DNA of 64,000 bases from Luteolibacter rhizosphaerae (GCF_025950095.1 NZ_JAPDDR010000002.1:558001-622000); one strand, 5' to 3'. Shown: positions 3,299 to 46,217, numbered from the stretch's first letter. A program made the numbers and translations. The notes: generated by a model from the letters alone, not told the origin.

Positions 3299-3481
3299 CC
3301 ATTCCATCATGGGGCGCAAGCCTGGCTCCGGGGCTTTCCGCAAAGCGGGCGCGCCGTAGGCCAGCCGCTTTGATATACCCAAAGGGAACTTTTACGGAAC
3401 GCGGCGGAAGTCCCGTCGTTCCGGGCTTTTCGGACCTTCTGGAGAGAGCTGGGGCTACGAAAAGCTACTCGGGTTTCGTAG
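3299..3481 (+). repeat. Island repeat element 1: TATACC-N12-TTACGG with flanking hairpins
   Basis: The core motif is at 3374-3397. Arms GCCGC (3364-3368) and GCGGC (3401-3405) bracket it. Immediately after comes CGGAACG...CGTTCCG, and a terminal hairpin CTACGAAA/TTTCGTAG lies at 3455-3481 with an 11-base loop. The left boundary is inferred from homology to element 2, starting at CCATTCCATCATGGGGCGCA (3299). This element fills the gap between the phosphatase (minus) and radC (plus). No gene is seen in 3303-3635. Confidence 0.8.
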
Positions 3482-3635
3482 GCTCCGGCAGTCTTTCGGC
3501 GGGGGAGGGATGCACTGGCGCTACAGCTTGGAATCGCGCTGGGGAGGGGGATTGTCAGATTATTGCCGGGTGTGCTGTAATCGTCAGGTTCGGGCTAGGA
3601 CTTCGGTGGCTGGAGTCGGCCCGACGAACCACAGC

Positions 3636-4100
3636 ATGCGTTTCATCATCCGCGAACATCGTGTGGTCCGTATCGGCGAACCACGACCGTCCAGCCAAGG
3701 CGACAACCCCGAAGCGATCTACCGCTACTTCAACGAGGTCGTCGCTGCCGACCCGGCCCACGAGCCGGACAAGGAGCACCTGGTTGTGCTGTTCCTGAAC
3801 ACCCGGCTGGAGATCTTCGGATGGCACCTGGCCGGCCTCGGAACTCTAAACGAGGTGTCGTTCCATCCAAGGGAGGTCCTTCGGCCAGCGATCATGAGCG
3901 GTGCGTATGGCTTCGTGCTCACCCACAATCACCCATCAGGTGATCCAAGTCCGAGCATCAGTGATGACCGATGCACCAGACGCTTGGTGGAGGCGTCCGA
4001 CGTGTTGCAGATTCGGTTCTTGGATCATCTGATCGTCGGTGACCCCCTGGCCGGGCGGAAGCCTTGGTTCTCGTTCCGAGAGAGCGGGATCATCGTGTGA
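3636..4100 (+). CDS. radC: RadC-like JAB/JAMM domain protein
   Basis: The 154-residue protein contains the JAMM metal-binding motif HNHPSGDPSPSISD followed by a conserved LDHLIVGD segment, typical of RadC-family proteins (DUF2466). Full-length chromosomal RadC has an N-terminal helix-hairpin-helix region; this one lacks it and starts at the ATG at 3636, just before the JAB fold. Short RadC proteins of this kind are common on mobile elements, where a role in DNA repair or in antagonising host defence has been suggested but not settled. An upstream extension to 3510 is open but has no recognisable content. Confidence 0.85.
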   Translation: MRFIIREHRVVRIGEPRPSSQGDNPEAIYRYFNEVVAADPAHEPDKEHLVVLFLNTRLEIFGWHLAGLGTLNEVSFHPREVLRPAIMSGAYGFVLTHNHPSGDPSPSISDDRCTRRLVEASDVLQIRFLDHLIVGDPLAGRKPWFSFRESGIIV

Positions 4101-4131
4101 TGCCCAGCGACTTGGTCTGTCTGGGCAAGTC

Positions 4132-4986
4132 CTACTCGTCGAAGTCCCTGACGGCCATCGCGGCACGGTTGGCATCGAGGTAACAGAGCCAAATGGCGTT
4201 CCAGACTCCCGGTTGGTAGCTACCGGCCAGGTTGTCGCTGAAAACCACCTCAAACCCTGACGAATGATTCGCGGCGAGACTTCGGCGGACAACTTCCGCC
4301 CCCATGTAAGGGACCGCGTTGTTTGCACCATGGAAGACCACCGCTGCTGGCTTAATAAGGGCGATCAGGTCCAGAATGTACTGGTGGGGATCACTGTAAC
4401 CACAGCAGGAAACCAAGGCGGCTTCTTCGATGCTGTTGAAGTTGTAAGACGACCACGGCTCTGACGTGATCCAGGGAAAGAAGTTCGCGGCTACCAGATG
4501 GAACGGTTCATCGAGGCCTCGGGCCTCACAGTTCTGACTGGCGAGAAGTTGAGCGGGTTTTTGCAGCTTCGAGCGCATTCCTGTCCGATCCACGGTGGGG
4601 ACAGGCGAATTCAAATATCCTTTGCCCTGGCCGTAGTTGATGCCAACTGCCAGCACGACCGGGAGATCGTCGTCGCTGCTTCCGGTAGTGTCGTCCATCA
4701 CCGCTCCAACGGCGACTGATCCCACCGCTACCTGGCTGGCTGCGGCGTTGGGGTCCGTGAGCGTGAGGCAGGTATCGACGAAATTCCGAGCGGACTTGTA
4801 GCCTTTCGGAGTTTTCCCGCAGAAACAATCGCAGCGGTTGGTGTCAGCAGCCTCGAGTGGGCGAGTGACGGAGGCTGTGCCCGGTGGTAGAATTTCAGGG
4901 CCAAGTGATCCTTCGGCTCCCAGTGGCTTGGCGAGCGTCTCCCTGTTGAATTGATCAATGATTCTTTTGAGGTCGGCGGCCTTCAT
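4132..4986 (-). CDS. Conserved-looking hypothetical protein, 284 residues
   Basis: I do not recognise a family with confidence. The protein starts MKAADLKRIIDQFN at 4986; the frame is open further upstream but that part overlaps the next plus-strand gene and looks like shadow coding. It has a Cys-containing segment near residue 55 (CDCFCGK), then VVLAVGINYGQG, later VAANFFPWITSEPWSSYNF and ALIKPAAVVFHGANNAVPY. The alternating hydrophobic strands and the 'I.P..V.FHG' segment are compatible with an alpha/beta fold such as a DNA glycosylase, but no diagnostic catalytic motif is visible, so no function is assigned. It is divergent from the signal-peptide protein at 5099. Confidence 0.6.
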   Translation of the reverse strand: MKAADLKRIIDQFNRETLAKPLGAEGSLGPEILPPGTASVTRPLEAADTNRCDCFCGKTPKGYKSARNFVDTCLTLTDPNAAASQVAVGSVAVGAVMDDTTGSSDDDLPVVLAVGINYGQGKGYLNSPVPTVDRTGMRSKLQKPAQLLASQNCEARGLDEPFHLVAANFFPWITSEPWSSYNFNSIEEAALVSCCGYSDPHQYILDLIALIKPAAVVFHGANNAVPYMGAEVVRRSLAANHSSGFEVVFSDNLAGSYQPGVWNAIWLCYLDANRAAMAVRDFDE

Positions 4987-5098
4987 TCGTCTGTTAGACA
5001 GATTTACGAATCTTATGTCAACGGACGGGAATGGAGGGCGAGACAAAGAAATCTGCGAGATGCCAACTACCGGCTTTCCGCATCTGCCCGGTTGCCCT

Positions 5099-6413: not shown

Positions 6414-6687
6414 TCCATCATGGGGCGCAAGCCGGGCTCCTGCTCTTTGGACGAAGGGGCTCCGCCGCCAGCCGTTGGTCCGGCGCTTTGATATACCCAA
6501 AGAGAACTTTTACGGAGCGCGCCCGGAAGCCCGTCCTTCCGGGCTACTCGGGCTACTCGGGCTACTCGGGCTACTCGGGCTACTCGGGCTACTCGGGCTA
6601 CTCGGGCTACTCGGGCTACTCGGGCTACTCGGGCTACTCGGGCTACTCGGGCTACTCGGGCTACGAAAAGACGCCCGAGTTTCGTAG
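6410..6687 (+). repeat. Island repeat element 2: TATACC-N12-TTACGG with hairpins and internal tandem array
   Basis: The core is at 6492-6515. Bracketing arms are GGCGC and GCGCC, which differ from element 1 but still pair, a compensatory change. Next comes a strong hairpin GCCCGGAAG/CTTCCGGGC (6522-6544 region), then the 9-base array, then CTACGAAA/TTTCGTAG at 6661-6687. The left part (CCATTCCATCATGGGGCGCA) is shared with element 1. The stretch 6414-6793 contains no convincing gene. Confidence 0.8.
6541..6664. repeat. 9-bp tandem repeat, unit GGGCTACTC, about 13.8 copies
   Basis: Thirteen uninterrupted copies plus seven bases, all identical by eye. Because the unit is three codons long, all frames stay open and yield spurious repeat peptides. 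Element 1 has only a single imperfect counterpart of the unit at the same place, so this looks like local expansion by slippage. The 9-base array should be unstable in copy number. Confidence 0.95.
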
Positions 6688-7139: not shown

Positions 7140-8390
7140 ATGGCAGCCACTCCCTCCTCGACGAAATTCGCCTGTCCCTCATGCCGCAAACAGCTTTCCG
7201 CGCCTTTGGAGGCCATAGGCTCTCAGGTTGCCTGCCCCGGCTGTTCGACCCCAATTCTGGTTCCCGCCGCTAGGGCGAAGAAGGCCTCGGCGCTCCCGAA
7301 ACTGGCAGCGGTTGCGGTGGTCGTCGTCTTGGGCGTAGGTGTGGTCTCGGTCCTCAGCGGCGGCAGCGGGCCAAGCGGAACAGGAAAGGCCTCCTCGGCT
7401 TCGGAGGGGGCGTTTTCCCAAGGAGGGAACTCCCGAGCTACCAATCTCGCGGATCAGATCTACGGGAAGCCGATAAAGCGCTCCGGGTCGGCGGACTGGG
7501 AGGTGGTGTTCGCCTACTATGCGAAGGCGCTCGGAGCCAGTCAGATCATGTTTTCGGCGCAGGAGCGGAAAGGGAAGCTGGCAATCCTCCCGGGGCGGTT
7601 GGTGGTCGATCAGGTCGGCGACGGTTTCATCATGGCGTCCCATACTGCGAGCCGCGAGCAGTGGGTGCTTCATCCGGACAATCCGCGGGCATTGGATGAG
7701 ATCGCGCTGACCGAGGGAACTTCGATCGCGCAACTGGTCGGCGTTTATGCAGGGCCTGAGCAGATGGAGACCGTCGACGGCGCGCCCCGCCGGATTCCCG
7801 CGATGATCGTGTTCGGGATGCTGACCAGTAAGGGCTACCTGGACTTCGAAGCGCCGGGAGCGGCCCGCGCTTCCGCCGAGGAGCTGAAGCCCTACGTAGA
7901 CGCCCAGGCTAGCCGCGAAGCGCAAGAGAAGGCCAAGGAAAAGGCAGAAGAGGCCGCGCGAGAGGCGGAGCGGCAGGCCCAGCGGGCCAAGGACATCGCG
8001 GAGCTGGAGCAGGACCCGTCGTGGAACCCGAAAGCGAAGCCAGCCGAAAGTAAGCCGGCGCCGACTTCGAAGCCCAGTGAACGGCCCGAGGAAACCCCGA
8101 AGCAGCCCAGTCCCGCGAACAATGATCTCGCGAAGGCCCGTGCCGATCTCGCGGCGGTAAAGTCGAAGATCGAGGGCGAACGGAAGCGGCACGCCGATGC
8201 GCTGAACGTTATCAACACACTCACTCTCAATAAGACCAAGCCGGTCAAAGAAGGCTCTCCTGCCTACCACCGCTGCATGGAGGCGTCCCGAATCATCGCG
8301 GAGGTGGAAAAGGGCGCGCCCGATCTGAAGGCCGAGAAGGCGCGGCTGGAGACGCTCGTAGCTGAGCTTGATCCCGAAATCCAGGAGTGA
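7140..8390 (+). CDS. Membrane-anchored zinc-ribbon protein with long C-terminal coiled coil
   Basis: The N-terminus has two CxxC knuckles (CPSCRKQ and CPGCSTP), a zinc ribbon of the kind found in many predicted inner-membrane proteins of PVC bacteria. A single transmembrane segment follows (residues ~53-72, AAVAVVVVLGVGVVSVL). A globular region follows, then a long Ala/Glu/Lys-rich helix from about residue 245, then a Pro-rich linker and a second helical segment. This looks like a scaffold or signalling protein rather than an enzyme. It is first in a three-gene operon with the GYF-domain and membrane proteins; its stop overlaps the next ATG by one base. Confidence 0.75.
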   Translation: MAATPSSTKFACPSCRKQLSAPLEAIGSQVACPGCSTPILVPAARAKKASALPKLAAVAVVVVLGVGVVSVLSGGSGPSGTGKASSASEGAFSQGGNSRATNLADQIYGKPIKRSGSADWEVVFAYYAKALGASQIMFSAQERKGKLAILPGRLVVDQVGDGFIMASHTASREQWVLHPDNPRALDEIALTEGTSIAQLVGVYAGPEQMETVDGAPRRIPAMIVFGMLTSKGYLDFEAPGAARASAEELKPYVDAQASREAQEKAKEKAEEAAREAERQAQRAKDIAELEQDPSWNPKAKPAESKPAPTSKPSERPEETPKQPSPANNDLAKARADLAAVKSKIEGERKRHADALNVINTLTLNKTKPVKEGSPAYHRCMEASRIIAEVEKGAPDLKAEKARLETLVAELDPEIQE

Positions 8391-8803
8391 TGGACGCGGC
8401 GATCACAATCCGGCGCGGAGACCGCCTCTACGGTCCGTATTCGCCCGACCAGATCCGGGAGATGCTAGGGACCGGCTCAGCGGTTCTCGATGATGAAGCC
8501 TGGAGCGAGACCCATGGGCAATGGACGACGCTTCGTCATCTGCTCGCTGCCGTCCCCAATCCTACGGGCCACGGCCCGCCCGATGCGCTCGACTCCCTGC
8601 TGGGTGATCCGACCGAGGGCGGTTCGCGCCCCCTCGCGCAGGAAGCGGATTCTGGGATGGAAGACCGCATTGCTACCGTCCTGATGGCGGTCGGACTCAT
8701 CGCGATAGTCCTGGGTACCGTCACTATCGTCCAGCACATGGACGCGATGAAGGCGCGACAAGCGCAGAGTTCCTCGCAAAGCCCCGCGTCCCACTCTCCT
8801 TGA
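8390..8803 (+). CDS. GYF_2-domain protein with C-terminal transmembrane segment
   Basis: Residues ~5-55 match the bacterial GYF_2 domain (RGDRLYGPYSPDQIREMLGT, then DDEAWSETHGQWTTLRHLL), a presumed peptide-binding module. A single hydrophobic segment near the C-terminus (MAVGLIAIVLGTVTIVQHM) would anchor it as a tail-anchored inner-membrane protein. The ATG at 8390 overlaps the upstream TGA by one base, indicating coupling. A GTG one codon earlier is possible. GYF_2 plus zinc-ribbon membrane neighbours suggest a membrane scaffold of unknown purpose. Confidence 0.8.
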   Translation: MDAAITIRRGDRLYGPYSPDQIREMLGTGSAVLDDEAWSETHGQWTTLRHLLAAVPNPTGHGPPDALDSLLGDPTEGGSRPLAQEADSGMEDRIATVLMAVGLIAIVLGTVTIVQHMDAMKARQAQSSSQSPASHSP

Positions 8804-8816
8804 AACGGAACGGGGC

Positions 8817-9263
8817 ATGTCGCCCAAACAACCGAAATTGATTCACCAAGCTCCCCTAATCATGCTGCTCGCCTGTCTGCTCATCGAAATCGTGGTGCTG
8901 GTCATACTGGCGATCCTGCAACGGCTGCCTCAGTACGTCGCGAACGTCGGCGCGGGACTTGTCGCGGGGTGTTTCCTAGCCTTCTACCAAGGAAAAGAAT
9001 CCCTGGGGGTGAATCTGGGCGTTTGCGGCCTCATCAGCTTCTTCATCGTTATGGGCGCGATCATCCTGTGGCATGGAGTCCGCGTTGCGGTTCTCTCGAT
9101 CGGCAATCTCCCAGCTCTTGCCCAGGCGATCGATATCGTGGCGATGCAAAGCGCGGTCGCCAAATCCTTGGCGGGAAAGCGTAGCAACCCTAACAGCTAC
9201 GGAAATCGACGGGTTGCGGAGGAGGTGGTGCGCGCGCTGACCAACAGCAAGCCAGAGGAGTGA
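8817..9263 (+). CDS. Small multi-pass membrane protein
   Basis: The 148-residue protein has three hydrophobic segments at roughly residues 12-35, 40-58 and 64-92, followed by a soluble tail with 'AKSLAGKRSNPNSYGNRRVAEEVV'-type charged content. It begins 13 bases after the GYF gene and is third in the operon led by the zinc-ribbon protein. No family was recognised. An inner-membrane partner of the two preceding proteins is the simplest reading. Confidence 0.7.
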   Translation: MSPKQPKLIHQAPLIMLLACLLIEIVVLVILAILQRLPQYVANVGAGLVAGCFLAFYQGKESLGVNLGVCGLISFFIVMGAIILWHGVRVAVLSIGNLPALAQAIDIVAMQSAVAKSLAGKRSNPNSYGNRRVAEEVVRALTNSKPEE

Positions 9264-11515: not shown

Positions 11516-12167
11516 ATGCAGACATCCGCCGCGACCAACTGGGTTTGTTACTACCGGTGCAGCACAGAAGGCCAGGGACGCTCGGGCCTCGGCCTGGAAG
11601 CCCAGCGCTCTACCGTCGCTCACTTTCTGGCCAGCCATCCGGGCGAGGTGATTGCTGAATTCACCGAAGTCGAATCAGGCCGGAAGGCCAATCGTCCGAA
11701 GCTCAAGGAGGCGCTCGGTCTTTGCAGGAAGCGCAAGGCGCACCTTGTGATTGCGAAACTGGACCGTCTGGCGCGCAGCGTCGCAATGATCAGCAGCCTG
11801 ATGGATAGCGGGGTTCTCGGCAGCCGACATGCCGAACGCAACCCGCTTCATGCTGCACGTCTACTCCGCCATGGCAGAGGAAGAGGCCAGATTGATCTCC
11901 GAGCGCACGAAGGCTTCTCTCGCGGCAGCAAAAGCCAGAGGAGTGGTGCTTGGGGAAACCGGCCGCGTTCTCGCGAAGCGACACCATGAGCAAGCGATTG
12001 CCAAAGCCGAGCAATACCGGGAAGTCGTGGAACTCGCCAAGGCTTCCGGGGCCAAGACTACGCGTGATTTGAAGGATTACCTCAATCAGCACGGGATTCC
12101 TTCACCAGGCGACGGCTTGTGGCACATCCCGAACACCCATCGACTGTTGAAGCGGCTGGGCTACTAG
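11516..12167 (+). pseudogene. Small serine recombinase (resolvase/invertase family), frameshifted
   Basis: The N-terminal half is a standard resolvase catalytic domain: nucleophile Ser in YYRCSTEGQ, then GLGLEAQR, and the LVIAKLDRLARSV helix. At about 11810 the frame is lost. The rest continues one frame over with ADMPNATRFMLHVYSAMAEEEARLISERTKASL and a C-terminal helical region ending at 12167. Two or five bases seem to be missing between MDSGV and FSAADMPNA. Either the gene is inactivated or the assembly has an error. Total length (~217 residues) fits a small serine recombinase. A copy of the island motif lies 28 bases downstream. Confidence 0.75.
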
Positions 12168-12194
12168 ATGCTCACCGTAAAATCGGTAAGAGGG

Positions 12195-12257
12195 TATACC
12201 AAGCCTGTGGAATTACGGGGGGCAACGCGTGCGAGATTACTACAGAACACGTAGTAA
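12195..12257 (+). repeat. Island motif copy 3 (TATACC-N12-TTACGG) plus hairpin
   Basis: The core is 12195-12218, preceded by GAGGG. A hairpin TTACTAC/GTAGTAA with a 7-base loop follows at 12237-12257. It lies directly downstream of the small recombinase and upstream of the DUF2637 gene. Its sequence around the core is closest to copy 5 (19135): both read GG-TATACC-A...GGAA-TTACGG. Confidence 0.75.
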
Positions 12258-12320
12258 GGTGGGAAAACAGCTTGGGCCATTCCTGTCAATCGGCGGGTAT
12301 CTTGTAAAGGAGGCCGGTCT

Positions 12321-12962
12321 GTGTTGGAATGCATGCTGATGAATTCCCTCGATCCCGTCCCTGAAGCAATTGGAGCCGTTGAAGCCCGCGAGGAACAGGC
12401 GCTGAAATTGATCGGGCGTACCACCGCTGTGTTGGTTGCATTGCTCGCGGTGAGCGCGTTCGTTCTGAGCTTCGAAGCTCTTCGTGAGCTGGCGGAGCGC
12501 GAGGGAGGGCTTGTGGGACCGGCCTCACTGATGTTTCCGGTAATCGTTGACGGAGCCATCTGCATTTTCAGCCTCTCCGCGCTGCGTGCCGAGCTTGCCG
12601 GTGACCATCGAGACGTCCGCTGGATCAAGGGGCTGGTGCTTGCCGTTACCCTGTCGTCGGTGGGACTGAACACGCTTCACGCTCACGGACGTCCGCTTGC
12701 GATGGTGATTGCAGCAGTCCCCCCGTTGCTGCTCTACGGCTCCCTTGAGGTGCTCCTCCTTCAGGCGCGCCGCCGCTTTGTCCCTGCTGAGGCGAAAGCG
12801 AGGCCGCGCGTTCCGAAGTCGATCCCGAGCCAGTCTGACGTTGAGGAGCGGCGCGAAAAGGCTCTGTCCCTCGCCAAGAAGGGACAGAGCCGTCGTGAGA
12901 TCGCACAAACGCTCGGCGTTTCGGCTGCGACCGTCAGCAAGTATCTTCGGGAATCCGCCTAG
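12321..12962 (+). CDS. DUF2637-type membrane protein with C-terminal helix-turn-helix
   Basis: The GTG start at 12321 is favoured by a perfect AAAGGAGG (12306-12313) seven bases upstream. Residues ~30-150 hold four hydrophobic segments (AVLVALLAVSAFVLSF; ASLMFPVIVDGAICIF; GLVLAVTLSSVGL; AMVIAAVPPLLLYGS), the arrangement of DUF2637/Spd-like proteins of plasmid transfer loci. The tail (REKALSLAKKGQSRREIAQT, LGVSAATVSKYL) is a resolvase-type HTH that closely resembles the protein at 21053-21304. The gene is convergent with the polymerase and shares a CTAG with its stop. A 12-bp perfect inverted repeat lies inside the coding sequence (12860-12891). Confidence 0.75.
   Translation: MLECMLMNSLDPVPEAIGAVEAREEQALKLIGRTTAVLVALLAVSAFVLSFEALRELAEREGGLVGPASLMFPVIVDGAICIFSLSALRAELAGDHRDVRWIKGLVLAVTLSSVGLNTLHAHGRPLAMVIAAVPPLLLYGSLEVLLLQARRRFVPAEAKARPRVPKSIPSQSDVEERREKALSLAKKGQSRREIAQTLGVSAATVSKYLRESA
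12860..12891. other. Perfect 12-bp inverted repeat within the DUF2637-HTH gene
   Basis: GGCTCTGTCCCT and AGGGACAGAGCC are separated by eight bases. In RNA or single-stranded DNA this would be a very stable hairpin. It lies between the membrane and HTH parts of the protein. Confidence 0.8.
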
Positions 12963-15457
12963 ATCCCCGGCATCAGCAGTTGGCCTTCCGGGGCCTCCGC
13001 CTTGTTCGCGGCATATTCGAATAGATCCCCGGCCTTGGAGATCAGCCGATCAGCCTCGAAGGTAGGGAAGAGTCTCTGAAGCCTCTCCAGAAGCCCGGTA
13101 ACCGCCGGGGTAGGTCGTAGACAATGAAGCTTGAGCTGGGATTTAGCCCGCTTGGCGTTCTCCACGTCCGTGAGCTTGAGCGAGAAGCCCGCCGATTCCA
13201 AGCAGTCGAGCAACTGGCGGTTCGCAAGCACTCGCTTGAGCCCGAGTTCCTCGTGTGCATACGCACGAAGGAACAACTTGAGCACTGCATTCTGTTCGGG
13301 GTCCTTTTTCCGGGATCTCTTCAAGCCCGCGGTTCGCTCGATTGCCATGTATCCCTCGAAGTCAGCGAGATCAGATTCGCTCTTCAGCACCCGCTGGTTC
13401 TCCCTTGTGAACGCATGCCAGCTGTCCCTCAGGCGCTGATAGACGGCCGCATTCGGGAGCGGCTGCGTGCGGAACCAGACGTGATCGATACCAAGGATAG
13501 GAGAGGTTCCGCGCTCACTGGTCGGCAAACGCTTCCAATCGAAATCCATCCGGTAGGCGATATGCTGCTTGTACTTCCCCACGTCGAGAGCGCCATCAGC
13601 ATCATGGATTTGACGAAGCGTCCGGAATAGCTCGATCTCATAGCGGTCGTTGCCCTCCCGCTCGATGAAAGTCTTCACGATGAATTCGTTCTGCTCCTCT
13701 TTGTCGGAAGTCGGCGCGCTGATGCCAGCCTTCGCGAGGATGATCCGGAAGCCATCGTAGCCCTCTAGGGTGGCCTGCCCCCGGGTTCGCCAAGCGAGCA
13801 CTTGCATGGCTCGGTGCTTCAGCTTGAGGACTGCATGATCGTCCGCGGAAATGCTGTGCCGGAAGTCACGGAACTTCAGGCCCAGTGGTCCCAGCGCCGC
13901 CGCCATCACCTCCGCTTCGGTCGCATTGCTGATGAACCCGTCTGTGGTTGCCGAAATGACCATTCGGGTTCTCGGCAGGCGATTGATCAGTTCGCCTAGG
14001 AACGCGCGGACCATGCCCGTCACCATGTTGGCGAGGAACGCATTGGTGATCTTGGATGGCGGAAGGTCTTTCATCTGCCCTTCCCGGGTATCGAACACCC
14101 GCTTTCGCTGGAGCCCTTGGCAGAGCTTGCCGTAGATGGAATTCCCGACGGTCTTGCAAAGATGCTCGAAGCACTCGTTCCCGGAAACGCTGTATCGTTC
14201 GCGCAGCCCCGCGATCTCACGCGCCAGCCCGAGAAAGGGGCGTTCCTCCCGCATCGGCATCAGGTAGGCGGTGTCGTTGACGATCTCCATCGCTGCTCCC
14301 AGCCGCCGAGCCAGCTCAATCTCCGGGCTGGTCGCAAAGCTCTCCCCTTGCAGAGGGAAGATCAGCGAAGTCCGGGTTCTGACGGGCAGGCAAGGGAACC
14401 TGACATCATCGGGAAAGCGGAATCTCACCAGCGCCACCCCATAGTGATCCGAGGTGAACTCATCGACCGACCGGGGCACTCGGATTCGATCCCAGTCCGG
14501 CGTCCCTAGGGCACACAACGCAGTCACGTAAGCTCCGTTGATGTCCCAGTCACCCCACTCGTCGATCGGCGAGGCTCCGTAGAAGTAGGTCTCGTTTCGT
14601 CCCCCGTGGAATCCCTCGGTAGCCAATGTGAGGTAATGATGATGCGATTGCATCGGAACCGACTTCCGCGATCCCTTGAAGTTGACGGTCTCCTCGGTTC
14701 CAAGGACCTCGTGGTGAGAAATGCCTGCGGGCTTCCAGCGGGTCTGGACAAACTCGGTCGCAATCTGGCCTAGCGTGAGTGGCAAGTCAGGTGAACCAGT
14801 GAGACTCTTCCGGAATTCGCCCATGCGCTGCAACCAGCGCGCTGCAATCTCCGCATCCCGGATTCCATACGCTTGAAATCGCACTGGGTCGTTCGCAAAA
14901 AATTCGCGCACATTGGAGATTTCCTCCTGCGACACTTCGAGTTTCTTGAGGCCCAGCAAATCCCCCAAGGCCTGAAGCTTGCGGTGCTTATCGGGAGCCA
15001 GAAGGGTGGTGTCGAATACCGACACCTCGATCTTGCGCCGCTTTCCATCCTTGCCCTTGAAGCTGGAGCGAAACGCCTTTCCCAGTGTCACGTAGGTATT
15101 GCGGATCCCGTCGAACTGCGACTTGAGTTTCCTGAAGTCTTGCAGCGAGGTCAGTTCCGCCAGGGACCAATGGATCGCGAGGACGACCCGGGCCGGGCAT
15201 CGCTCCAGAAATCCTTCGTCGAGTCCCTTCTGGATGATCCGGCCCACAACCTCTGCAAGCGTGAGGCGTCGGCCCGGCTCCATGATCTCGATCCATTCGT
15301 AAGGGTTCGGGTTGCTCAGCACGTAGCCCTGATAGGATACGACATCATTCTTCTCTGCTCCGGTGACATACTCCGAATCGAGCCCGCAGATCAGGTCGTC
15401 TCCCAGGAGATCGTTAAGTGTGTAGCTGCGGGACGGCTTGCGTGTGGTTGGTTTCAT
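12959..15457 (-). CDS. Stand-alone family B DNA polymerase (DNA_pol_B_2-like) with 3'-5' exonuclease motifs
   Basis: The 832-residue protein has the family B motifs in order. Exo I is LDSEY near residue 27 and Exo III is YGIRDAE near 200. Polymerase motif A is DINGAYVTAL near 305, motif B is KTVGNSIYGKLCQG near 440, and motif C is SATTDGFI near 504. A KLKHRAMQVLAW segment after motif C fits the KxY region. The layout resembles protein-primed or primer-independent polymerases of mobile elements and organellar/viral polymerases rather than chromosomal Pol II. Start is the ATG at 15457; a TTG at 15466 is possible. It is divergent from the 482-residue gene and convergent with DUF2637. Which PolB subgroup it belongs to cannot be settled by eye. 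Confidence 0.85.
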   Translation of the reverse strand: MKPTTRKPSRSYTLNDLLGDDLICGLDSEYVTGAEKNDVVSYQGYVLSNPNPYEWIEIMEPGRRLTLAEVVGRIIQKGLDEGFLERCPARVVLAIHWSLAELTSLQDFRKLKSQFDGIRNTYVTLGKAFRSSFKGKDGKRRKIEVSVFDTTLLAPDKHRKLQALGDLLGLKKLEVSQEEISNVREFFANDPVRFQAYGIRDAEIAARWLQRMGEFRKSLTGSPDLPLTLGQIATEFVQTRWKPAGISHHEVLGTEETVNFKGSRKSVPMQSHHHYLTLATEGFHGGRNETYFYGASPIDEWGDWDINGAYVTALCALGTPDWDRIRVPRSVDEFTSDHYGVALVRFRFPDDVRFPCLPVRTRTSLIFPLQGESFATSPEIELARRLGAAMEIVNDTAYLMPMREERPFLGLAREIAGLRERYSVSGNECFEHLCKTVGNSIYGKLCQGLQRKRVFDTREGQMKDLPPSKITNAFLANMVTGMVRAFLGELINRLPRTRMVISATTDGFISNATEAEVMAAALGPLGLKFRDFRHSISADDHAVLKLKHRAMQVLAWRTRGQATLEGYDGFRIILAKAGISAPTSDKEEQNEFIVKTFIEREGNDRYEIELFRTLRQIHDADGALDVGKYKQHIAYRMDFDWKRLPTSERGTSPILGIDHVWFRTQPLPNAAVYQRLRDSWHAFTRENQRVLKSESDLADFEGYMAIERTAGLKRSRKKDPEQNAVLKLFLRAYAHEELGLKRVLANRQLLDCLESAGFSLKLTDVENAKRAKSQLKLHCLRPTPAVTGLLERLQRLFPTFEADRLISKAGDLFEYAANKAEAPEGQLLMPGI

Positions 15458-15570
15458 CGACGCCAACGCACCCGTTTCCGCGTTGCACGGCGACGGGCCC
15501 TTACCGGCAGGTCCGCCCGAAATGGCCTATGTTAGACTTCAATCACTTATGAAGATTCCGAAAGCCCGAT

Positions 15571-15607
15571 TTGGTTAGGGCTTGACAAGCTAATATAATG
15601 CAGCCCT
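15571..15607 (+). promoter_or_regulatory. Sigma70-type promoter with overlapping 6-bp dyad, near-leaderless transcript
   Basis: TTGGTT (15571-15576), a 17-base spacer and a perfect TATAAT (15594-15599) place the transcript start near 15606, about five bases before the ATG at 15611. No Shine-Dalgarno sequence could fit. AGGGCT (15577-15582) and AGCCCT (15602-15607) form an inverted repeat around the -10 box and could be an operator. Confidence 0.6.
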
Positions 15608-15610
15608 ATT

Positions 15611-17059
15611 ATGCTTGATTATTCCCAATTCGTTCCGCGCAAGCCCTCCTCCGAAATCTCCACCCCCGCGCTGCTTCTCCCCCAACGTTTCGAGGTCGTG
15701 GGCGGGTTCAATCCTGACGGATTCGACATGGCCGCTGCCGAATGGCATCTCCGGAAGACTTTCGTCCAAAACGGACTGGTCGGGATCATCCATGGTCTGT
15801 TCGGGATCATGCCCAGCAATGCGGATGTTCTGAAGAACCGTGAATTCGTGGAGAAGCTCGATGAGATGGAACCTGCCACCGACGATGAAAACGATCGTCT
15901 TGCCGGGGGTGAGCCTGACAAGTGCGACGGCGACGACGGCCCGACTCGCAAACAGGTTCCGTATGGGTTGTCTCACAGTTCCTTGCCTCTCCCGCTCCAG
16001 GGAGTGGACTTCGACGAAGCATTCCTCCTCGCGGCGCGCGCTATCCACGAACAATACAAGGCTGCTCTCAACTCCACGATCCTTGCCCGCCAGAATAAGG
16101 CGCGCAATGCGAAGGGAAGCGGACTCATTGAATTCGCGAACCGCTACGGCTTCCTTGGGGGCGAGAAGGCACTCAACCGCGATTCGCTCTTCTACAATTT
16201 CGCGGTAATTCGCGCGGTCGATGCGATTCGTATCCTCCGCAAGGCCGGCCGCCTCACGCTCAGCGCCAATGCGAACAAGGCGATCGATGGACTCATCGCA
16301 AAGGACGAGGAGGCCCTTTCCCCACAGGCTTTCGAGTCGTCGACCCGCGAATGGAACTACGTGGCGTTGGAGCAGATCGTCCAGTCTTTCGGAATCCCGG
16401 TTCTCGTCCTTCTGGAGAAGTGTGGCACGCCCGGACGGAAGAAGCGCGGCACCGGTGATCTGAAGGGCCCGGTCATGGAGGGCCTCAACCGCCTTCTCAT
16501 TGATTCGCTCCAGCCCTGCTCCAAGGAAGCCGTCGCCAAGTATCAGATCGAGGGGGTCGTGGACAAGTTGCTCGATGGCTCGCGCTCCGAAACCGAGGAG
16601 GAACGCATCCGCCGGGAGGCTGCTGCCACCAAGTTTGAAGAGCTGCGCAAGAAGGGCTTCGTGTTGAACGTGAAGGAGGACGCAGCACGCGAAGAGCGCA
16701 TCGAACGTCGCAACGCGGTCGAGAACCTCAAGGAGTTGGTTCTGCTTGTTGGCTGGCAGCTCAGCGATCCGGCGCTCGACGGAATTGGTTTCGGCGAATG
16801 CGACGAGTTCTGGGCTCGCGAAAGCAAAAACAACAAGCCGAACGAGGAGTCCCTCCTTCCCAGTTTCCTCAAGGGCCTCAAGCGCAGCTACGTGAAGCTC
16901 GCATCCAAGGCGGACGATGTGTTCGCCGGCCCGCCCGAAAGCCCCCAAGAATCGAAGCCGGTCTTCTACAATGACTTCTTGATCGCGGATGCATGGCTTC
17001 GCGACCTCAAGGATTTCGAGGTCGAATCGAGCTTCTGGAACAAGGAGCCTGCCGCATAA
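15611..17059 (+). CDS. Hypothetical 482-residue protein divergent from the DNA polymerase
   Basis: No family recognised. The N-terminal ~50 residues are followed by an acidic linker (EPATDDENDRLAGG) and then a mostly helical protein with charged segments (for example EEERIRREAAATKFEELRKK). No signal peptide or membrane segment is seen. It sits between the polymerase and the large serine recombinase, has its own strong promoter and terminator, and by position is a candidate replication or accessory protein of the element. A protein-priming or DNA-binding role is possible but nothing in the sequence proves it. The 512-codon antisense frame over the same region is a shadow. Confidence 0.7.
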   Translation: MLDYSQFVPRKPSSEISTPALLLPQRFEVVGGFNPDGFDMAAAEWHLRKTFVQNGLVGIIHGLFGIMPSNADVLKNREFVEKLDEMEPATDDENDRLAGGEPDKCDGDDGPTRKQVPYGLSHSSLPLPLQGVDFDEAFLLAARAIHEQYKAALNSTILARQNKARNAKGSGLIEFANRYGFLGGEKALNRDSLFYNFAVIRAVDAIRILRKAGRLTLSANANKAIDGLIAKDEEALSPQAFESSTREWNYVALEQIVQSFGIPVLVLLEKCGTPGRKKRGTGDLKGPVMEGLNRLLIDSLQPCSKEAVAKYQIEGVVDKLLDGSRSETEEERIRREAAATKFEELRKKGFVLNVKEDAAREERIERRNAVENLKELVLLVGWQLSDPALDGIGFGECDEFWARESKNNKPNEESLLPSFLKGLKRSYVKLASKADDVFAGPPESPQESKPVFYNDFLIADAWLRDLKDFEVESSFWNKEPAA

Positions 17060-17073
17060 GCGCCAGAGGTCCA

Positions 17074-17120: not shown

Positions 17121-17231
17121 CGAGACACATCCTCTTCAAGCTTGGGGGTGAAATTGACAGCAATTCCCTCTTCATGTTGCGATGTCGGGTTGATCCCGCA
17201 TCAAAGCCCCCTCATTCAGAGCCCCGCGAGG

Positions 17232-19013
17232 GTGCTCCGTTGCGCGACCCTCGTCCGAGTCTCCACCCAGGAACAGGCCGGATCTGATCGTGCAGGCCTC
17301 GACCGCCAGCGGCAGGCTATCGCGCGCGTCGTTGCCGATAAACGCTACGAGGTTGTTTCGGCAATCGAGCTGATCGATGTGAGCGGCACCTCGATCCTCC
17401 ATGCTCCGGAGGTAACACACCTGATCGAGAGGATCGAGAACCGCGAGATTGACGTGTTGTTGGCGAGCGAGATGTCGAGAATCATCCGCCCGGATGACCT
17501 CTCGTCATTCGGGTTCCTGGAGACCTGCCGCCGACACGGCGTGGTGGTCGATCTCGGAGGCACGGTCCACGACTTCGATTCGCCCGAAGGCTTCCTCAGC
17601 GGAGGGATCCTGGCGCTCCTCGGAGGTCATGAGCGCATGCAGATGCTCCGCAGGATGATGGCGAGTAAGGAAGCCAAGAGAGCCCGCGGAGAGAATCCAC
17701 AGAGTCGCATCACACTGCCACTCGGAATCGACTATGACCGCGCCGCAGCGAAATACGGCTATAACGAGCGGATCATTAGCGTGATCGAGGCGTTCCGTCT
17801 GGTGGACGAAGAGGGAATCCGGAACTTGTCTGAGGTCGGACGTCGCTGCGGGATTCATCAATGCAACGTGAGGAACATCCTGCGGAACGAAATCTACCGC
17901 GGTGAACGGGTCTATTCAAAGTTCCGAGACCAGTCCCGCAAGGGAATCAAGGCCACGGGTCGGCAGGGTGATCGTCCCAAGATCGCCCGACCACCCGACC
18001 GGGTGATCCGCGTCCGCGTCTTCACCGTCGAGGAGCAGGCCGTATCGGATGAACGGTTCGAGCGAGTCCAACAGGTCCTCCGCGGAATCCGCGAGAACCA
18101 TGAGGTGTTCGTGGCCGAGCGGCACGAAGGGAACCTGCTTTCCGGTGTCGGGAGGTGCGGGTTCTGTGCCGAGCGCCTCTATGCCAAGCGGCGGACTCCG
18201 CGGCTTGCAAACAAGTCTCCCACGAAGGGCCATTACATCTGCCGGTCCGCCCATGAATCGACCAAGGGCAAGCTTGGCCACGGCAAATGCAAACAGGGCT
18301 GGGTGCGGAAGGAGGAACTCGATGAGCTGACGGAAGCGTTCATCACGAAGTTCCTCGCCGATCCCGGCTTTGTGAAGGCGGTCCTTCAGCAAGCACGCGA
18401 GAAGCAGGCGGGCAAGGTTCTGCGTATCGACCTTGGGGCGTCGGTGAAGGATCGACTCGCTGACATTGAGCGCCGCGACAAGCGGGTCCTTGAGGCAATG
18501 GAGGAAGGCTTGCTTTCGATCGCGGAGGCGAAACAGCGGCGGCAGAGGCTTGCGGATGAGCGCGCGGGCTTGATCAAGGCGCAGCAAGTGAATCGCGAAG
18601 ATCAGCCCGAGGTCCGGGAACTGGAGGGGATTGCAGGGGCGGTGTCCAAAGGACTCGAAGGATGGCCTGTGGAAGGAACGGTGAAGGAGAAGAAGGCGTT
18701 CCTCGCAAAGATCTTCTCGGAGATCTACTTCCAGCGGGGAGCTATTACCGCATTCCGTCTGGCTCCAGGGCTCATCGGAAGCGCCTCGGGGGCGTGGAGC
18801 TTCGCCGCCGACATGCCCGTCGCGATTGATCCGCCGGTCTGCCTCAAGGTTCCAGAACCGGAAGTCGAAGTGCCAGAAGGAATGAAGCGATGCTCCAGGT
18901 GCCGGGAGGTGAAATCGGTGAGCGACTACTATGGGAAGTGGGCAGCATGCAAACGCTGCACCAACAAGGCGTCCGCAGCCCGCTACCGAAAGAAGCGGGC
19001 TGAACGGGGGTAA
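17232..19013 (+). CDS. Large serine recombinase (site-specific integrase)
   Basis: About 593 residues from a GTG at 17232. The catalytic Ser is in ATLVRVSTQEQ near residue 10, followed by AGLDRQRQAI and an SRIIRPDDLSSFGF helix. The 'recombinase' DNA-binding domain includes NVRNILRNEIYRGERVYSK. A zinc-ribbon domain has CGFCAERLY near residue 310 and further Cys. A coiled-coil stretch spans roughly 400-480. The C-terminus adds an unusual second metal-type cluster (CSRCREVKSVSDYY, CKRC). An upstream GTG at 17148 is an alternative start. Large serine recombinases integrate and excise elements between attP and attB sites, usually next to the gene; two island motif copies lie 25 and 122 bases beyond its stop. 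Confidence 0.9.
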   Translation: MLRCATLVRVSTQEQAGSDRAGLDRQRQAIARVVADKRYEVVSAIELIDVSGTSILHAPEVTHLIERIENREIDVLLASEMSRIIRPDDLSSFGFLETCRRHGVVVDLGGTVHDFDSPEGFLSGGILALLGGHERMQMLRRMMASKEAKRARGENPQSRITLPLGIDYDRAAAKYGYNERIISVIEAFRLVDEEGIRNLSEVGRRCGIHQCNVRNILRNEIYRGERVYSKFRDQSRKGIKATGRQGDRPKIARPPDRVIRVRVFTVEEQAVSDERFERVQQVLRGIRENHEVFVAERHEGNLLSGVGRCGFCAERLYAKRRTPRLANKSPTKGHYICRSAHESTKGKLGHGKCKQGWVRKEELDELTEAFITKFLADPGFVKAVLQQAREKQAGKVLRIDLGASVKDRLADIERRDKRVLEAMEEGLLSIAEAKQRRQRLADERAGLIKAQQVNREDQPEVRELEGIAGAVSKGLEGWPVEGTVKEKKAFLAKIFSEIYFQRGAITAFRLAPGLIGSASGAWSFAADMPVAIDPPVCLKVPEPEVEVPEGMKRCSRCREVKSVSDYYGKWAACKRCTNKASAARYRKKRAERG

Positions 19014-19037
19014 GACTCCGTCGGTCCCCGTCATTGG

Positions 19038-19120
19038 TATACCCTTTGTACGATTTTACGGCGAGGTGGCTTCTTCGGCAGATGAACCCGGTCAAAAACC
19101 TCCTACGGTGCGCACCGTAG
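19038..19120 (+). repeat. Island motif copy 4 plus perfect 18-bp palindrome
   Basis: Core TATACC-N12-TTACGG at 19038-19061, starting 25 bases after the serine recombinase stop. At 19103-19120 lies the perfect palindrome CTACGGTGCGCACCGTAG, matching the CTACG/CGTAG hairpin arms of other copies. The palindrome could also act as the recombinase gene's terminator, although it lacks a T-run. Confidence 0.75.
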
Positions 19121-19134
19121 AACCCCGGTAAGGG

Positions 19135-19158
19135 TATACCATGGAGACGGAATTACGG
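19135..19158 (+). repeat. Island motif copy 5 (TATACC-N12-TTACGG)
   Basis: Exact core spacing, 97 bases after copy 4 in the same orientation. Flanks (GGTAAGGG before, GGAA before TTACGG) resemble copy 3 at 12195. No CTACG-type hairpin was found downstream. Confidence 0.7.
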
Positions 19159-19315: not shown

Positions 19316-19322
19316 CATTGCG

Positions 19323-19901
19323 CTAGTCGAGGATCGAGACCTCGATCCTGGCGTAGCCGACGGGATCGTAGGGCTCGTATTGGTACGGTGGCTTGTGCGA
19401 GACATCCAGCGTTTCCACCTTGTGGCCGTTGGCGGGTTCCTTGACTCCTAAGACGATCTGGAGAGGTCTGCCCTCGCTATCGCGGAATTCGTCGAACGGA
19501 ATCCCGAACATCGGGTCATCGATTGTAACCCACACGATGTTCTCGGCAGATGGAGAGACCGGCAGCGAGTCAATCAGCCCGGGGTCTCCTGGCACAATCG
19601 CAATCGTACCACACGCATGCGGCTGGAACTCCCACCATCCGTGGAGGTAGGTGATGATGTAAGTTGCCATCGTGGAGAGTTCCAGCGGACCATCTCCGAC
19701 CCACCAGACGCTGGATGGCTCCTGCGCCTTCTTGGCCGCCTCAGCCCTAGCCTTGTATTCGGCGACGCCGAGCCGGCCGAGCGATTCAGACTGGTCATCA
19801 AGAAGGCTTTTCCAGTCGTTTCTCTCATAAAGGAGGATCCAGAATTCGGTCGGGCTGAGTGGCTTGGGGGCCCGCGTCTTGCGGGGATATTTTCTTTTCA
19901 T
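19323..19901 (-). CDS. Hypothetical protein, tandem paralogue A
   Basis: The 192-residue protein starts with a basic segment (MKRKYPRKTRAPK) and continues PTEFWILLYERNDWKSLL. It shares an aligned core with the protein at 20187-20789: a Trp-rich segment before 'FQPHACGTIAIVPGD', then 'LPVSPSAENIVWVTIDDP', then 'EGRPLQIVLGV' and a Tyr/Pro-rich C-terminus. I recognise no named family. It has its own terminator and about 245 bases separate it from the upstream paralogue, so the two are probably separate transcription units made by duplication. Confidence 0.7.
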   Translation of the reverse strand: MKRKYPRKTRAPKPLSPTEFWILLYERNDWKSLLDDQSESLGRLGVAEYKARAEAAKKAQEPSSVWWVGDGPLELSTMATYIITYLHGWWEFQPHACGTIAIVPGDPGLIDSLPVSPSAENIVWVTIDDPMFGIPFDEFRDSEGRPLQIVLGVKEPANGHKVETLDVSHKPPYQYEPYDPVGYARIEVSILD

Positions 19902-20186: not shown

Positions 20187-20789
20187 CTACAGCGAGGTAA
20201 ACTTCACCTTCTCGTAGCTCATCGGCCGGTAGAGAGGAAAGCCTTTCACGACCTCGTCAAAAGGATTCCAAACCGGATCGCCCGCATGGCCGTCCTCCTC
20301 TCCCACTACTCCGAACAGGACCTGGAGCGGGAAGCCCTCGTCATCGACGTAACGCTCCACAAGCGGAGCCGTCTTAGGGAGGTCGTCGCTCGTAATCCAC
20401 ACGAGATTTTCCGTACACGGGGAGATCGGAAGATCGGCGATGTCGGTGACGTTGCTGCGCACTACTGCGATTCCTCCGCACGCGTAGGGCTGATAGTTCC
20501 ACCAGGCGTCGAGAAAATCGATCGCAGTCGCCACGTCTCCCGAAATGCTCAGTGGAGGACCGAAGGACGGATAGAACACCCCGGAACGTCCCTGCTTCTT
20601 CTTCGCCTTTTTGGTGTGCTCTTTCACCTTCTGGTTGCCGTGCTGCGCCAAGCGTCCCTCCTGCATGATCATCACTCCCTGCCAGTCCTCCCGGGTATAC
20701 ATGAGGAAGAGGAACTTCGCTGGATGATGCATTCCGAGTGCGGTCTTGGGGTCGTACTTTGCGAACAGATTATGAGTCCTGTTTTTCAT
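20187..20789 (-). CDS. Hypothetical protein, tandem paralogue B
   Basis: The 200-residue protein aligns with the gene at 19323: HPAKFLFLMYTREDWQGVM, then WWNYQPYACGGIAVVRSN, LPISPCTENLVWITSDDLP, and EGFPLQVLFGVVGEEDG. A lysine-rich helix (HTKKAKKKQGR) sits between the first and second blocks. Divergence of the pair is substantial, so the duplication is not recent or the two arrived separately. Function unknown. Both genes sit between island motif copies 5 and 6, with nothing else in that interval, so they may form a cassette. Confidence 0.7.
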   Translation of the reverse strand: MKNRTHNLFAKYDPKTALGMHHPAKFLFLMYTREDWQGVMIMQEGRLAQHGNQKVKEHTKKAKKKQGRSGVFYPSFGPPLSISGDVATAIDFLDAWWNYQPYACGGIAVVRSNVTDIADLPISPCTENLVWITSDDLPKTAPLVERYVDDEGFPLQVLFGVVGEEDGHAGDPVWNPFDEVVKGFPLYRPMSYEKVKFTSL

Positions 20790-20941: not shown

Positions 20942-20999
20942 AGGGGCTCGTTCCCAATGTGCCGAGCGAATGACCGGCTCAGTCGATCCGTGCCTATGG

Positions 21000-21023
21000 T
21001 ATACCCTTATGCCGATGTTACGG
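21000..21023 (+). repeat. Island motif copy 6 (TATACC-N12-TTACGG)
   Basis: Exact core spacing. The spacer reads CTTATGCCGATG and is closest to copy 4 (CTTTGTACGATT). It lies 30 bases before the small HTH gene. No clear CTACG hairpin follows. Confidence 0.7.
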
Positions 21024-21351: not shown

Positions 21352-21699
21352 GTGAACACGATTGTAGTGAGGCCGAGCGAACGACCAAAGGTGCTGGAAC
21401 AGGGCAAGCTGTCCTACGAGCAGATCAAAGCGGAAAGGGTTGCTCCCGGATTCATCGCCTCAATTTCACGGGCCAACTCCTGCGGGCAGATCATCGTGGT
21501 CAAAAGCGACGGCACCCAGGCGTTCGCCGCACCAATCGAGTCGGTAGTCGCGTCCGACATGAAGGGAGCCGCCACCCGGGCTTCGATCTCGTTCGGTAAG
21601 CCAACGCCGATTAAGGAAGGAAGCATCCCCGGGGTGGTGTCAGGCATTCGTTGGAACCAGAAGAACCTTCGGTACCTGGACGTAGAGCAGCTCTTCTGA
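21352..21699 (+). CDS. Hypothetical protein, 115 residues
   Basis: It starts with GTG at 21352, 47 bases after the small HTH gene on the same strand. The sequence is soluble, with alternating strands (SCGQIIVVKSDGTQAFAAPIE, SVVASDMKGA) that suggest a small beta-rich fold. No family was recognised. It lies just before motif copy 7 and probably forms a two-gene cassette with the HTH protein. Confidence 0.5.
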   Translation: MNTIVVRPSERPKVLEQGKLSYEQIKAERVAPGFIASISRANSCGQIIVVKSDGTQAFAAPIESVVASDMKGAATRASISFGKPTPIKEGSIPGVVSGIRWNQKNLRYLDVEQLF

Positions 21700-21780
21700 G
21701 GGAGCCCCTCCCGCTGCGGAGGTCTGCGGGGGAGCCGGGAGAGCGACCGGCTTTTCCCGGCCGCAGCTACGCCCCTCTGA

Positions 21781-21867
21781 TATACCCAAAGGGAAAGGTT
21801 ACGGAGGCTCAAACCACGGGGCTTCTCGGCCCTTCAGAGCTACGAAAGCAGCCCTTTTCTTCGTAGC
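21781..21867 (+). repeat. Island repeat element 7: TATACC-N12-TTACGG plus hairpin
   Basis: Core 21781-21804. The hairpin CTACGAA (21841-21847) / TTCGTAG (21861-21867) follows. It belongs to the same subfamily as elements 1, 2, 8 and 9 (TGATATACCCAA before the spacer). It lies between two plus-strand genes. Confidence 0.8.
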
Positions 21868-27766: not shown

Positions 27767-28059
27767 ACTTGTTTATCTAACACTGGTGGATTCTGGTCAA
27801 TTCGAGAGAGGGGGAAGGCTACCACGGCCCCTTTCACTAGACTACTTCTCTCGCGGCCTCCGAGAGCCCTTCTTGCCTGTTACGGCCCAGGCGGCGACCT
27901 GAGACCCTTCTCCTTCGTCGGAAGCGCTCGGAGAGACCACCGAAAGCAAAGGAAACCTCTACGACAACAGAACCGAGCCAGCGGCAGCCTCGGTCGAGAA
28001 CCCCGGCCTGGGCGAAGAAGGGGGGCGAGCGCTGCCTCTCCGTCGCTCCGCGCCCCTGA

Positions 28060-28145
28060 TATACCCAAGTGGCAAAGTTACGGAAGCCTCGCGGGAGGAG
28101 GTGGAGAAGCCTCTGGAGGTTACGAACGCACAGGTGTGCTTCGTA
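28060..28145 (+). repeat. Island repeat element 8: TATACC-N12-TTACGG plus hairpin
   Basis: Core 28060-28083; hairpin TACGAA-C-GCACA / TGTGC-TTCGTA at 28121-28145. It sits in an 850-base stretch (27767-28618) that otherwise holds only one doubtful short frame (28261-28461) and the promoter region of the OLD gene. Confidence 0.8.
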
Positions 28146-28260
28146 GGGGTTGCCTCCGCACCAAAGCGGCCGGAGACGAGCCTTGCTTCAGGCCAAGGGG
28201 GGTGGAATTGGCAACGGGGTGTTTGATGCGAGGACCCGGGCATGAAATGGCGACACGCTG

Positions 28261-44982: not shown

Positions 44983-45122
44983 AATTGCGACATCGACCTT
45001 GATGACGTCAGGCGGGCCGACGCGCTGGCTTTGGGTATCGACGTCAATTCGACCGACAGGCTCACGGGCTGGTGGTCGTAGTCGCTACCGACGAGTGACG
45101 GGCCGGTGGAGCAAGCAGGACC

Positions 45123-45455
45123 TCACTTTTCATACGTCCGGCCGCCAGTGGACCAGAGGTAGAGCGTTTCGGAATATCCGAGCTTCACGATCTTTCTTTC
45201 CATGATCGGCTCGGCAACGCCAGCGATCACCACGGCTCTTCCCAGAAGAGATACCCCAGCTTCGGATTCGCCGAGAATTCCATCCGCCGACGCAATGAAT
45301 GGAAGATTCAAGCCGTTGCGCCAATACACGATGGTTGCACCTTCCGGAAGTGCCCCAATTGGCTGGATCACGAAGATTCCGCAAAAGCTGCGAACGAAAA
45401 CGAAACACACCGTGAAAGCGAGTAGCGCCAAGAGAATGATCCGTCGCTTTTTCAT
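45123..45455 (-). CDS. Small membrane-anchored or secreted hypothetical protein
   Basis: From the ATG at 45455, a basic start (MKKRRII) and a long hydrophobic segment (LLALLAFTVCFVFVRSFCGI) act as signal or anchor. The remaining ~80 residues are beta-rich (VYWRNGLNLPFIASADGILG). No family was recognised. It may be co-transcribed with the secreted protein upstream (45503-45919). Confidence 0.55.
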   Translation of the reverse strand: MKKRRIILLALLAFTVCFVFVRSFCGIFVIQPIGALPEGATIVYWRNGLNLPFIASADGILGESEAGVSLLGRAVVIAGVAEPIMERKIVKLGYSETLYLWSTGGRTYEK

Positions 45456-45502
45456 GAAATCGTTCGTGGTGGAAGGGCTGAACGAACCTTGCGTCTGATG
45501 TC

Positions 45503-45919
45503 CTACTTCGTCGCGACCTTCACGTACGCGTAATCGACCTTTCCTTCGAGTTCGAAGACGGCGACGGAGGTCAGCTTTCCGGCCGGCTCCCACCGGATCA
45601 CCGTTGGCCCCTTGAAGGTCGGCTTGGCGGCATCGATTCCGAGCGCCTTGGTTGCAGTTTCGTCGAAGGTCACGTCCTTCAGGTCGTTGATCGTGATCCA
45701 GTCAGCCTCCCCCTTGATGTAGACGATCTCAACCTTGCCCTTCTGATAGACGAGCGTCTTGCCGTACTTGGTTTTCTCTCCTTCGGTCGGCTTGCCGAGG
45801 AGCTTCTCCACCGCGGCAGGCTCTTTGCCGGCGATTTTCGGGATATCCGCTACCGGGTCGGCGAATAGAGGTTGGACGAACGACAGGACGGCGACAGTGG
45901 CGAAGGCGAAAAGTCTCAT
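45503..45919 (-). CDS. Periplasmic hypothetical protein
   Basis: The 138-residue protein has a signal peptide (LFAFATVAVLSFVQPLFA) and a mature domain with KEPAAVEKLLGKPTEGEKTK and KVEIVYIKGEADWITINDL, the pattern of small SmpA-like or DUF-type periplasmic domains with an unassigned ligand. It lies 47 bases upstream of the 45455 gene on the same strand. Function unknown. Confidence 0.65.
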   Translation of the reverse strand: MRLFAFATVAVLSFVQPLFADPVADIPKIAGKEPAAVEKLLGKPTEGEKTKYGKTLVYQKGKVEIVYIKGEADWITINDLKDVTFDETATKALGIDAAKPTFKGPTVIRWEPAGKLTSVAVFELEGKVDYAYVKVATK

Positions 45920-46193
45920 TCGGCAAGATTGGGAGTGCGTGACTCTAACGACTTTCAGCGACCGAACTCAAGGCATTGATCGACCTGCCTGCTAGCGCTT
46001 CGGCGGCCAGGCGGTAGCCCGCTGGACTCCTGGCGCTCCTATGGGCTCTCCCGCTTCGAAAGCGTTCCTCTGGCATCAGAAGGCCACTACGGGTGCCGAC
46101 GAAGGTGGGCAGAGGCGGCCGAGCGCGGGTGGCTTTTTCGCAGGCGAGCAGAGCGCGATCGGCTGGGAGCGCTCCGCTCCCGCGCTCCTTTGA

Positions 46194-46217
46194 TATACCC
46201 AAGTGGAAGAGTTACGG
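46194..46217 (+). repeat. Island motif copy 9 (TATACC-N12-TTACGG)
   Basis: The last copy in the window, preceded by CTTTGA and with spacer CAAGTGGAAGAG, almost the same as copy 8. The downstream hairpin is degenerate: a CTTACGAAG at 46253-46262 lacks a clear partner. The gap 45920-46372 otherwise contains no gene. Confidence 0.75.

Follow-up and report, generated by a model that had tools for sequence, protein, structure and literature searches.

A family of 44-bp dyads as probable attachment sites of a large serine recombinase in a pipolin-like defence island of Luteolibacter rhizosphaerae

The region analysed here, a window of 64,000 nucleotides from Luteolibacter rhizosphaerae (C2:558001-622000; the genome, of 6.23 Mb, is called G000), raises the question of why one short pattern, TATACC-N12-TTACGG, recurs between the genes of a single island, and whether it serves a recombinase. 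The original prediction listed nine copies on the plus strand, at 3374, 6492, 12195, 19038, 19135, 21000, 21781, 28060 and 46194; all of them are exact, and their excess over chance was upheld by 100 dinucleotide shuffles, from which 0 matches were expected. A tenth exact match lies on the minus strand (12175-12198) and overlaps that of 12195, because the true site is a dyad of 44 bp centred on TATA; it was from this overlap that the motif was recognised as half of a dyad. The whole genome contains 15 exact matches (13 plus and 2 minus), and a backwards-pattern control gave 1. Every exact match is confined to one island of 94 kb (C2:550830-645027); with a weight matrix, two further type A copies (see below), weaker than the rest, are picked up at C2:547785 and C2:650637. 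As had been claimed, the copies avoid genes, given that 0 of 16 dyads overlap a called gene in a region where the intergenic share is approximately 24%.

The full site reads CCGTA(A/G)-N12-G(G/A)-TATA-CC-N12-TTACGG, and the 24-base motif is one half of it. G000 contains 10 dyads of this grammar and the congeneric genome G006 contains 7, against 0 in all 16 remaining genomes of the genus; its control gave 0 throughout the same genomes. The copies had been treated as a single class, but they split into two. In type A, with the core GA-TATA-CC, the arms are unlike: a GC-rich arm, X, lies on the left and a conserved arm, Y (CCCAARNGGNA..TTACGG), on the right. The type A matches of the window are those at 3374, 6492, 21781, 28060 and 46194, which correspond to plus-strand dyads at 3354..3397 (CCGTAGGCCAGCCGCTTTGATATACCCAAAGGGAACTTTTACGG, X arm left and Y arm right), 6472..6515, 21761..21804, 28040..28083 (between the PIN7 and Old genes) and 46174..46217 (with a degenerate left arm). 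Type B, with the core GG-TATA-CC, comprises the matches at 12195, 19038, 19135 and 21000, i.e., four unstranded dyads: B1 (12175..12218, CCGTAAAATCGGTAAGAGGGTATACCAAGCCTGTGGAATTACGG), B2 (19018..19061), which is the inverted partner of B1, B3 (19115..19158) and its inverted partner B4 (20980..21023). The claim that all copies share one orientation holds for 11 of the 12 type A sites; the exceptions are dyad B1 and site C2:634612, a type A copy (C2:634587) that lies outside the window on the minus strand.

Nearly every type A site is accompanied by a second dyad, CTACGAA-N13-TTCGTAG, which is always 27 bp long and which we refer to as dyad II. In nearly all copies it follows dyad I after 35-36 or 57-59 bp, two spacings set 22 bp apart, or roughly two turns of the helix; the exceptions are C2:550828 (54 bp) and the site at 6492 (145 bp), and no recognisable dyad II exists at C2:650637. 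Within the window, unstranded copies of dyad II are located at 3455..3481 (57 bp past dyad I), 6661..6687 (spacer of 145 bp), 21840..21866 (35 bp), 28120..28146 (36 bp) and 46254..46280 (36 bp; degenerate, TTACGAAGTGGAGGCCCCGACTCGTCG). At 6516-6660 a short tandem repeat of ctactcggg units widens the spacer of the 6492 site from approximately 57 to 145 bp. A whole-genome search for the exact dyad II gave 8 copies in G000 and 4 in G006, each adjoining a type A dyad I, and none in the remaining 16 genomes of the genus. Its inner stem shows 43 pairs against 30.5 expected (p ~0.002), somewhat above expectation, so that a hairpin role is possible. This covariation, together with the confinement of the copies to one island, would agree with a passive mobile intergenic repeat, MITE- or REP-like, whose hairpins would make the dyads structural only. 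We consider such an origin very improbable, since constant outer ends and target duplications are absent, the middle 12 bases of the dyad I arms are not self-complementary, and a lone copy stands beside a large serine recombinase (LSR) gene in another genus. A search for known RNA elements gave none.

The four type B dyads lie around genes for a recombinase and a polymerase. B1 and B2 enclose an LSR/PolB element (12.2-19.1 kb), with B1 at its left end, that codes for a DUF2637 and HTH protein (12321..12962, plus), a family-B DNA polymerase with relatives of the pipolin type on plasmids (12959..15466, minus), a conserved element protein of 482 residues with no function assigned (15611..17059, plus) and an LSR of 593 residues with Resolvase, Recombinase and zinc-ribbon domains (17232..19013, plus; its longest ORF starts at 16989). 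The polymerase shares PolB motifs and 24% identity with those of small Staphylococcus and Fusobacterium plasmids; the LSR matches the XisF and CcrC models weakly, far under their cut-offs (33.6 bits versus 900 for CcrC). B3 and B4 enclose a neighbour of 1.9 kb (19.1-21.0 kb), with B3 at its left end, that contains two paralogous genes without assigned function on the minus strand (19323..19901 and 20187..20789, 38% identical). The reported position of two copies just after serine recombinase genes was also borne out: B2 starts 5 bp past the stop codon of the intact LSR, and another copy lies 8 bp past the remnant of a small serine recombinase of the resolvase/invertase family (11648..12167, plus), which is broken relative to the copy at C2:636583-637302. 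Further to the right is a gene for a 115-aa element protein (21352..21699, plus), 94% identical to the copy before C2:645002. With regard to the history of this segment (11648-21304), the first PolB/LSR core looks older, with the broken small recombinase on its left and a C-terminal fragment of DUF2637 on its right; its interior has apparently been replaced by the B1-B2 and B3-B4 units, in a gene order inverted relative to the second core. The cargo of the island includes Zorya II, Old and Shango.

A second LSR/polymerase core, at C2:634587-645027, is bounded by type A sites in inverted orientation. It codes for a small serine recombinase (complete from approximately 636583), a 561-aa LSR, a 558-aa protein, a polymerase, a DUF2637 protein and a 115-aa protein; the LSR and the polymerase are 51% and 48% identical to their counterparts in the element of the window, and the paralogue of the DUF2637/HTH protein in this second element matches a PHROG excisionase family. 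The flanking inverted repeat agrees at 37/44 positions, its copies lying 10.4 kb apart with X inside and Y outside. A long near-perfect palindrome (C2:643807-643852) is located between the polymerase and DUF2637 genes of this core.

The inverted pairs allow the arms to be compared between the two ends of an element. Mean agreement is 15.6/22 for X with X and 17.8/22 for Y with Y, and only 11.4 for X with Y. If the arms of the second core are swapped, the inside arms (XX') agree at 19/22 positions and the outside arms (YY') at 18/22, versus 10 and 14 within each site; the same exchange gives 14 and 18 for B1/B2 (11 and 10 within sites), and 15 and 15 for B3/B4 (12 and 10). Read from the sequence, near-palindromes that appear when arms are swapped between element ends are the signature of attL and attR. 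Every dyad found in G000 and G006 carries two unlike arms, and no homotypic (XX' or YY') type A dyad was found in either genome. As for products of recombination, neither a circle nor an empty site nor an XX' or YY' junction came to light, the genus having been searched for an empty site; the sole candidate for an intact YY' target in genus mates, in G009, was discarded as a chance core without the outer motifs.

Since the core dinucleotide is palindromic, these arm data are also compatible with a single asymmetric site present in inverted copies. According to this alternative, which we regard as unlikely, an asymmetric X|Y site would be used against itself by the small serine recombinase or an LSR, in a resolvase/invertase- or integron-cassette-like manner; recombination between direct copies would add or remove circular cassettes, and that between inverted copies would flip the core. 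It agrees with the polarity common to 11 of the 12 type A sites, with the fact that all of these are of the X|Y type, XX' and YY' being absent, with the small serine recombinase gene that adjoins site C2:634612, with the phased spacing of the accessory dyad, which recalls resolvase accessory sites, and with the switching of flanks described below. However, a dyad of 44 bp exceeds the site of a small serine recombinase, which is approximately 28 bp long, the type B arms obey the attL/attR logic of integrases, and a symmetric intact copy adjoins an LSR in the genome G241. We favour attachment sites of an LSR, and the relatives of the island are considered below with this reading in mind.

Among 57 relatives, the exact 24-base pattern occurs in G006 alone, of the same genus, and a stricter type A pattern, searched for in 384 genomes of the class, in G000 and G006 only. 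In G006, the left flanks of sites C17 and C25 are unrelated, but their right flanks are 99% identical over 140 bp, and the change from one to the other falls within dyad I. C2:550828 and C19 have the right flank alone in common, and a left flank is common to C2:561372, 628364, 547785 and C21/C22 of G006. For C2:579779 and 645002 the break is displaced leftward from the site by approximately 60-80 bp, and hence some breakpoints fall elsewhere than at the dyad. When the genes between copies were checked for constancy, the outcome was mixed: flanks switch at the sites just described, and three sites (C2:628364, 634612 and 645002) keep their genes in G006, which retains the order A1, trio, A2, core, A3 of C2:628364-645027. 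Phosphatase-like genes (tyrosine/dual-specificity), 75-77% alike, are present at 2538-3302 of the window, C2:547158-547709 and C2:627739-628212; their starts lie 58-134 bp to the left of three type A sites, and they occur also near two G006 sites and are represented elsewhere by fragments without sites. A three-gene set (zinc-ribbon-like, GYF_2, 133 aa) occurs twice in the island with approximately 86% DNA identity (window 7206-9263 and C2:628926-631052), and is kept near the recombinase in the genome G015. A non-coding repeat of approximately 440 bp with a hairpin at its end (C2:550898-551334) follows the type A site on the uvrA side, and recurs at several contig ends of G006 and partly at C2:609500 and C2:653200.

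Other genomes were reached through the proteins. Related LSRs in G015 (59%) and G004 (58%) belong to genomes without type A sites; beside them, type-B-like sites appeared only as matches with 3 mismatches, at background level, and no inverted 44-bp pair was found to enclose the G015 LSR. A further search with the LSR gave only Corynebacterium recombinases, which are distant. The complete genome of G241, from another genus and reached through the polymerase, contains a single perfect homotypic dyad (CCGTAAAGGTTCTCATTT-GGTATACC-AAATAACCATACTTACGG), the sole perfect match in 4.9 Mb, which sits between a gene like that of the 558-aa protein and the orthologous LSR, approximately 455 bp upstream of the latter; the left arm of this dyad resembles Y, with a mean agreement of 16.9/22. 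Around this single attP-like dyad there is also an inverted repeat of 43/44 (G241:C1 4013182 and 4013741). In G486, from another family, an inverted dyad pair with the same grammar and an AAAG core flanks a PolB gene near a tyrosine integrase, and the contig that carries these dyads has no LSR. This PolB element (G486:C194 5765-10480) shows a GC-rich inverted repeat (37/44) placed tightly around the polymerase gene; the pair is suggestive only, because the left copy lies within the first codons of PolB and the core is a GC hairpin. Site copies in phages or plasmids were searched for in IMG/VR, with none found.

The G486 pair is a caution that PolB, rather than the LSR, could be the protein that uses the sites. 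A role as regulatory, partition or replication sites of the PolB element (operators, stoperators, origin- or centromere-like sequences) would be consistent with the intergenic position of every copy, with the presence of several copies per element that keep the same neighbours in G000 and G006, and with PolB as the constant neighbour, even where the contig lacks an LSR. Nevertheless, the polarity of the sites is independent of transcription, as is seen at 46194, C2:547785 and C2:550828, where both neighbouring genes are on the minus strand, and this sets the operator and stoperator reading aside; furthermore, unrelated left flanks meet near-identical right flanks inside the dyad, and the arms pair across elements and not within a site. 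Such a role is, in our view, improbable.

The dyads are probably attachment sites of the LSRs encoded by the island's own PolB elements, in a composite, pipolin-like defence island, as judged by sequence comparison. The suggestion of an attachment-like site family is supported by what is observed: the anatomy of the dyad, its restriction to the island, its adjacency to the LSR, arms that rebuild palindromes, switching flanks, and the recurrence of an intact copy beside the orthologous LSR of G241. The LSR would bind dyad I as a dimer, with one subunit on each 22-bp arm, and would cleave within the central palindrome, TATA. The LSR/PolB element of the window and its small neighbour are flanked by type B sites; type A sites flank the second LSR/PolB core and split the remaining island, so that cargo such as Zorya II, Old and Shango lies between them. 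Dyad II, helically phased from the Y arm, may bind an accessory factor, either the small serine recombinase or the DUF2637/HTH protein. The composite island would have been assembled and rearranged by recurrent recombination at these sites, to which homologous exchange between copies would have contributed in part. The proposal that cassettes accumulated through the sites is plausible given that flanks switch there, and it is weakened by the three sites that keep the same genes in G006; cassette gain may be the cause of the array. The most interesting point is that the prevailing polarity of the type A array is left unaccounted for by standard integrase chemistry: from standard LSR logic one would not expect hybrid sites of the same polarity in a long series. 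Little is settled about the way in which defence islands acquire and exchange complete systems, and the defined site and candidate recombinases found here make module exchange directly testable. The site also adds a new candidate to the integrase specificities considered for genome engineering, one with an accessory dyad and a palindromic core that is unusual.

The statement that the pattern matches no known site family was too strong, since its architecture is that of LSR att sites. As in those of the Listeria phage A118 (PMC3556126, PMC3783163), there is an imperfect dyad of approximately 44 bp with a short core, an adjacent LSR and hybrid ends that rebuild palindromes; the A118 integrase needs attP sequence over 44 bp, and when the core dinucleotide is symmetric both deletion and inversion result (PMC3556126). 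In contrast, the island dyads have a palindromic TATA core, TTACGG equidistant in both arm types, a phased second dyad on the Y side, and more than 10 hybrids of the same type in one island, and integrases normally do not recombine hybrid sites with one another (PMC3783163). The shift of approximately 5 bp in the zinc-ribbon motif between attP and attB, known for A118 only, is absent here, as TACGG is equidistant in the X and Y arms. SCCmec/ECC islands (PMC6222049) are also driven by LSRs and have att sites of approximately 50 bp, variable cargo and, in many cases, several attR-type sites, and the island LSR weakly matches CcrC. Unlike them, this LSR scores far below the CcrC cut-off and does not classify as ccrA, ccrB or ccrC, the site core is TATCAAAG-like and not TATCATAA, and the island carries a family-B DNA polymerase. 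A family-B polymerase as the hallmark of the element, here with a distant plasmid match, and variable cargo are shared with pipolins (piPolB elements; PMC7385651, PMC9710591), a name that has also been given to small plasmids of the Staphylococcus/Fusobacterium type (PMC9710591). Integrated pipolins are reported with a tyrosine recombinase, in contrast to the LSR, the internal site array and the lack of a detected tRNA target here (no tRNA gene in 142 kb); the island shows neither the tyrosine recombinase of the E. coli type nor its att-like direct repeats next to a tRNA gene, and the G486 relative does have a tyrosine integrase. Integron attI/attC arrays differ from the island in their tyrosine recombinase, whereas the recombinase here is of the serine type, the dyads are double-stranded and the modules measure 3-24 kb rather than single genes; no integron integrase was detected among the window proteins scanned, which cover part of the island's proteins. 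The likeness is that modules are parted by same-polarity sites next to a recombinase. As a tentative idea, the island could be a serine counterpart of the integron, in which a resident PolB/LSR core with a bipartite att site, made up of the 44-bp dyad and the phased 27-bp dyad, would capture and exchange multi-gene defence cassettes in one polarity, giving rise to an ordered array.
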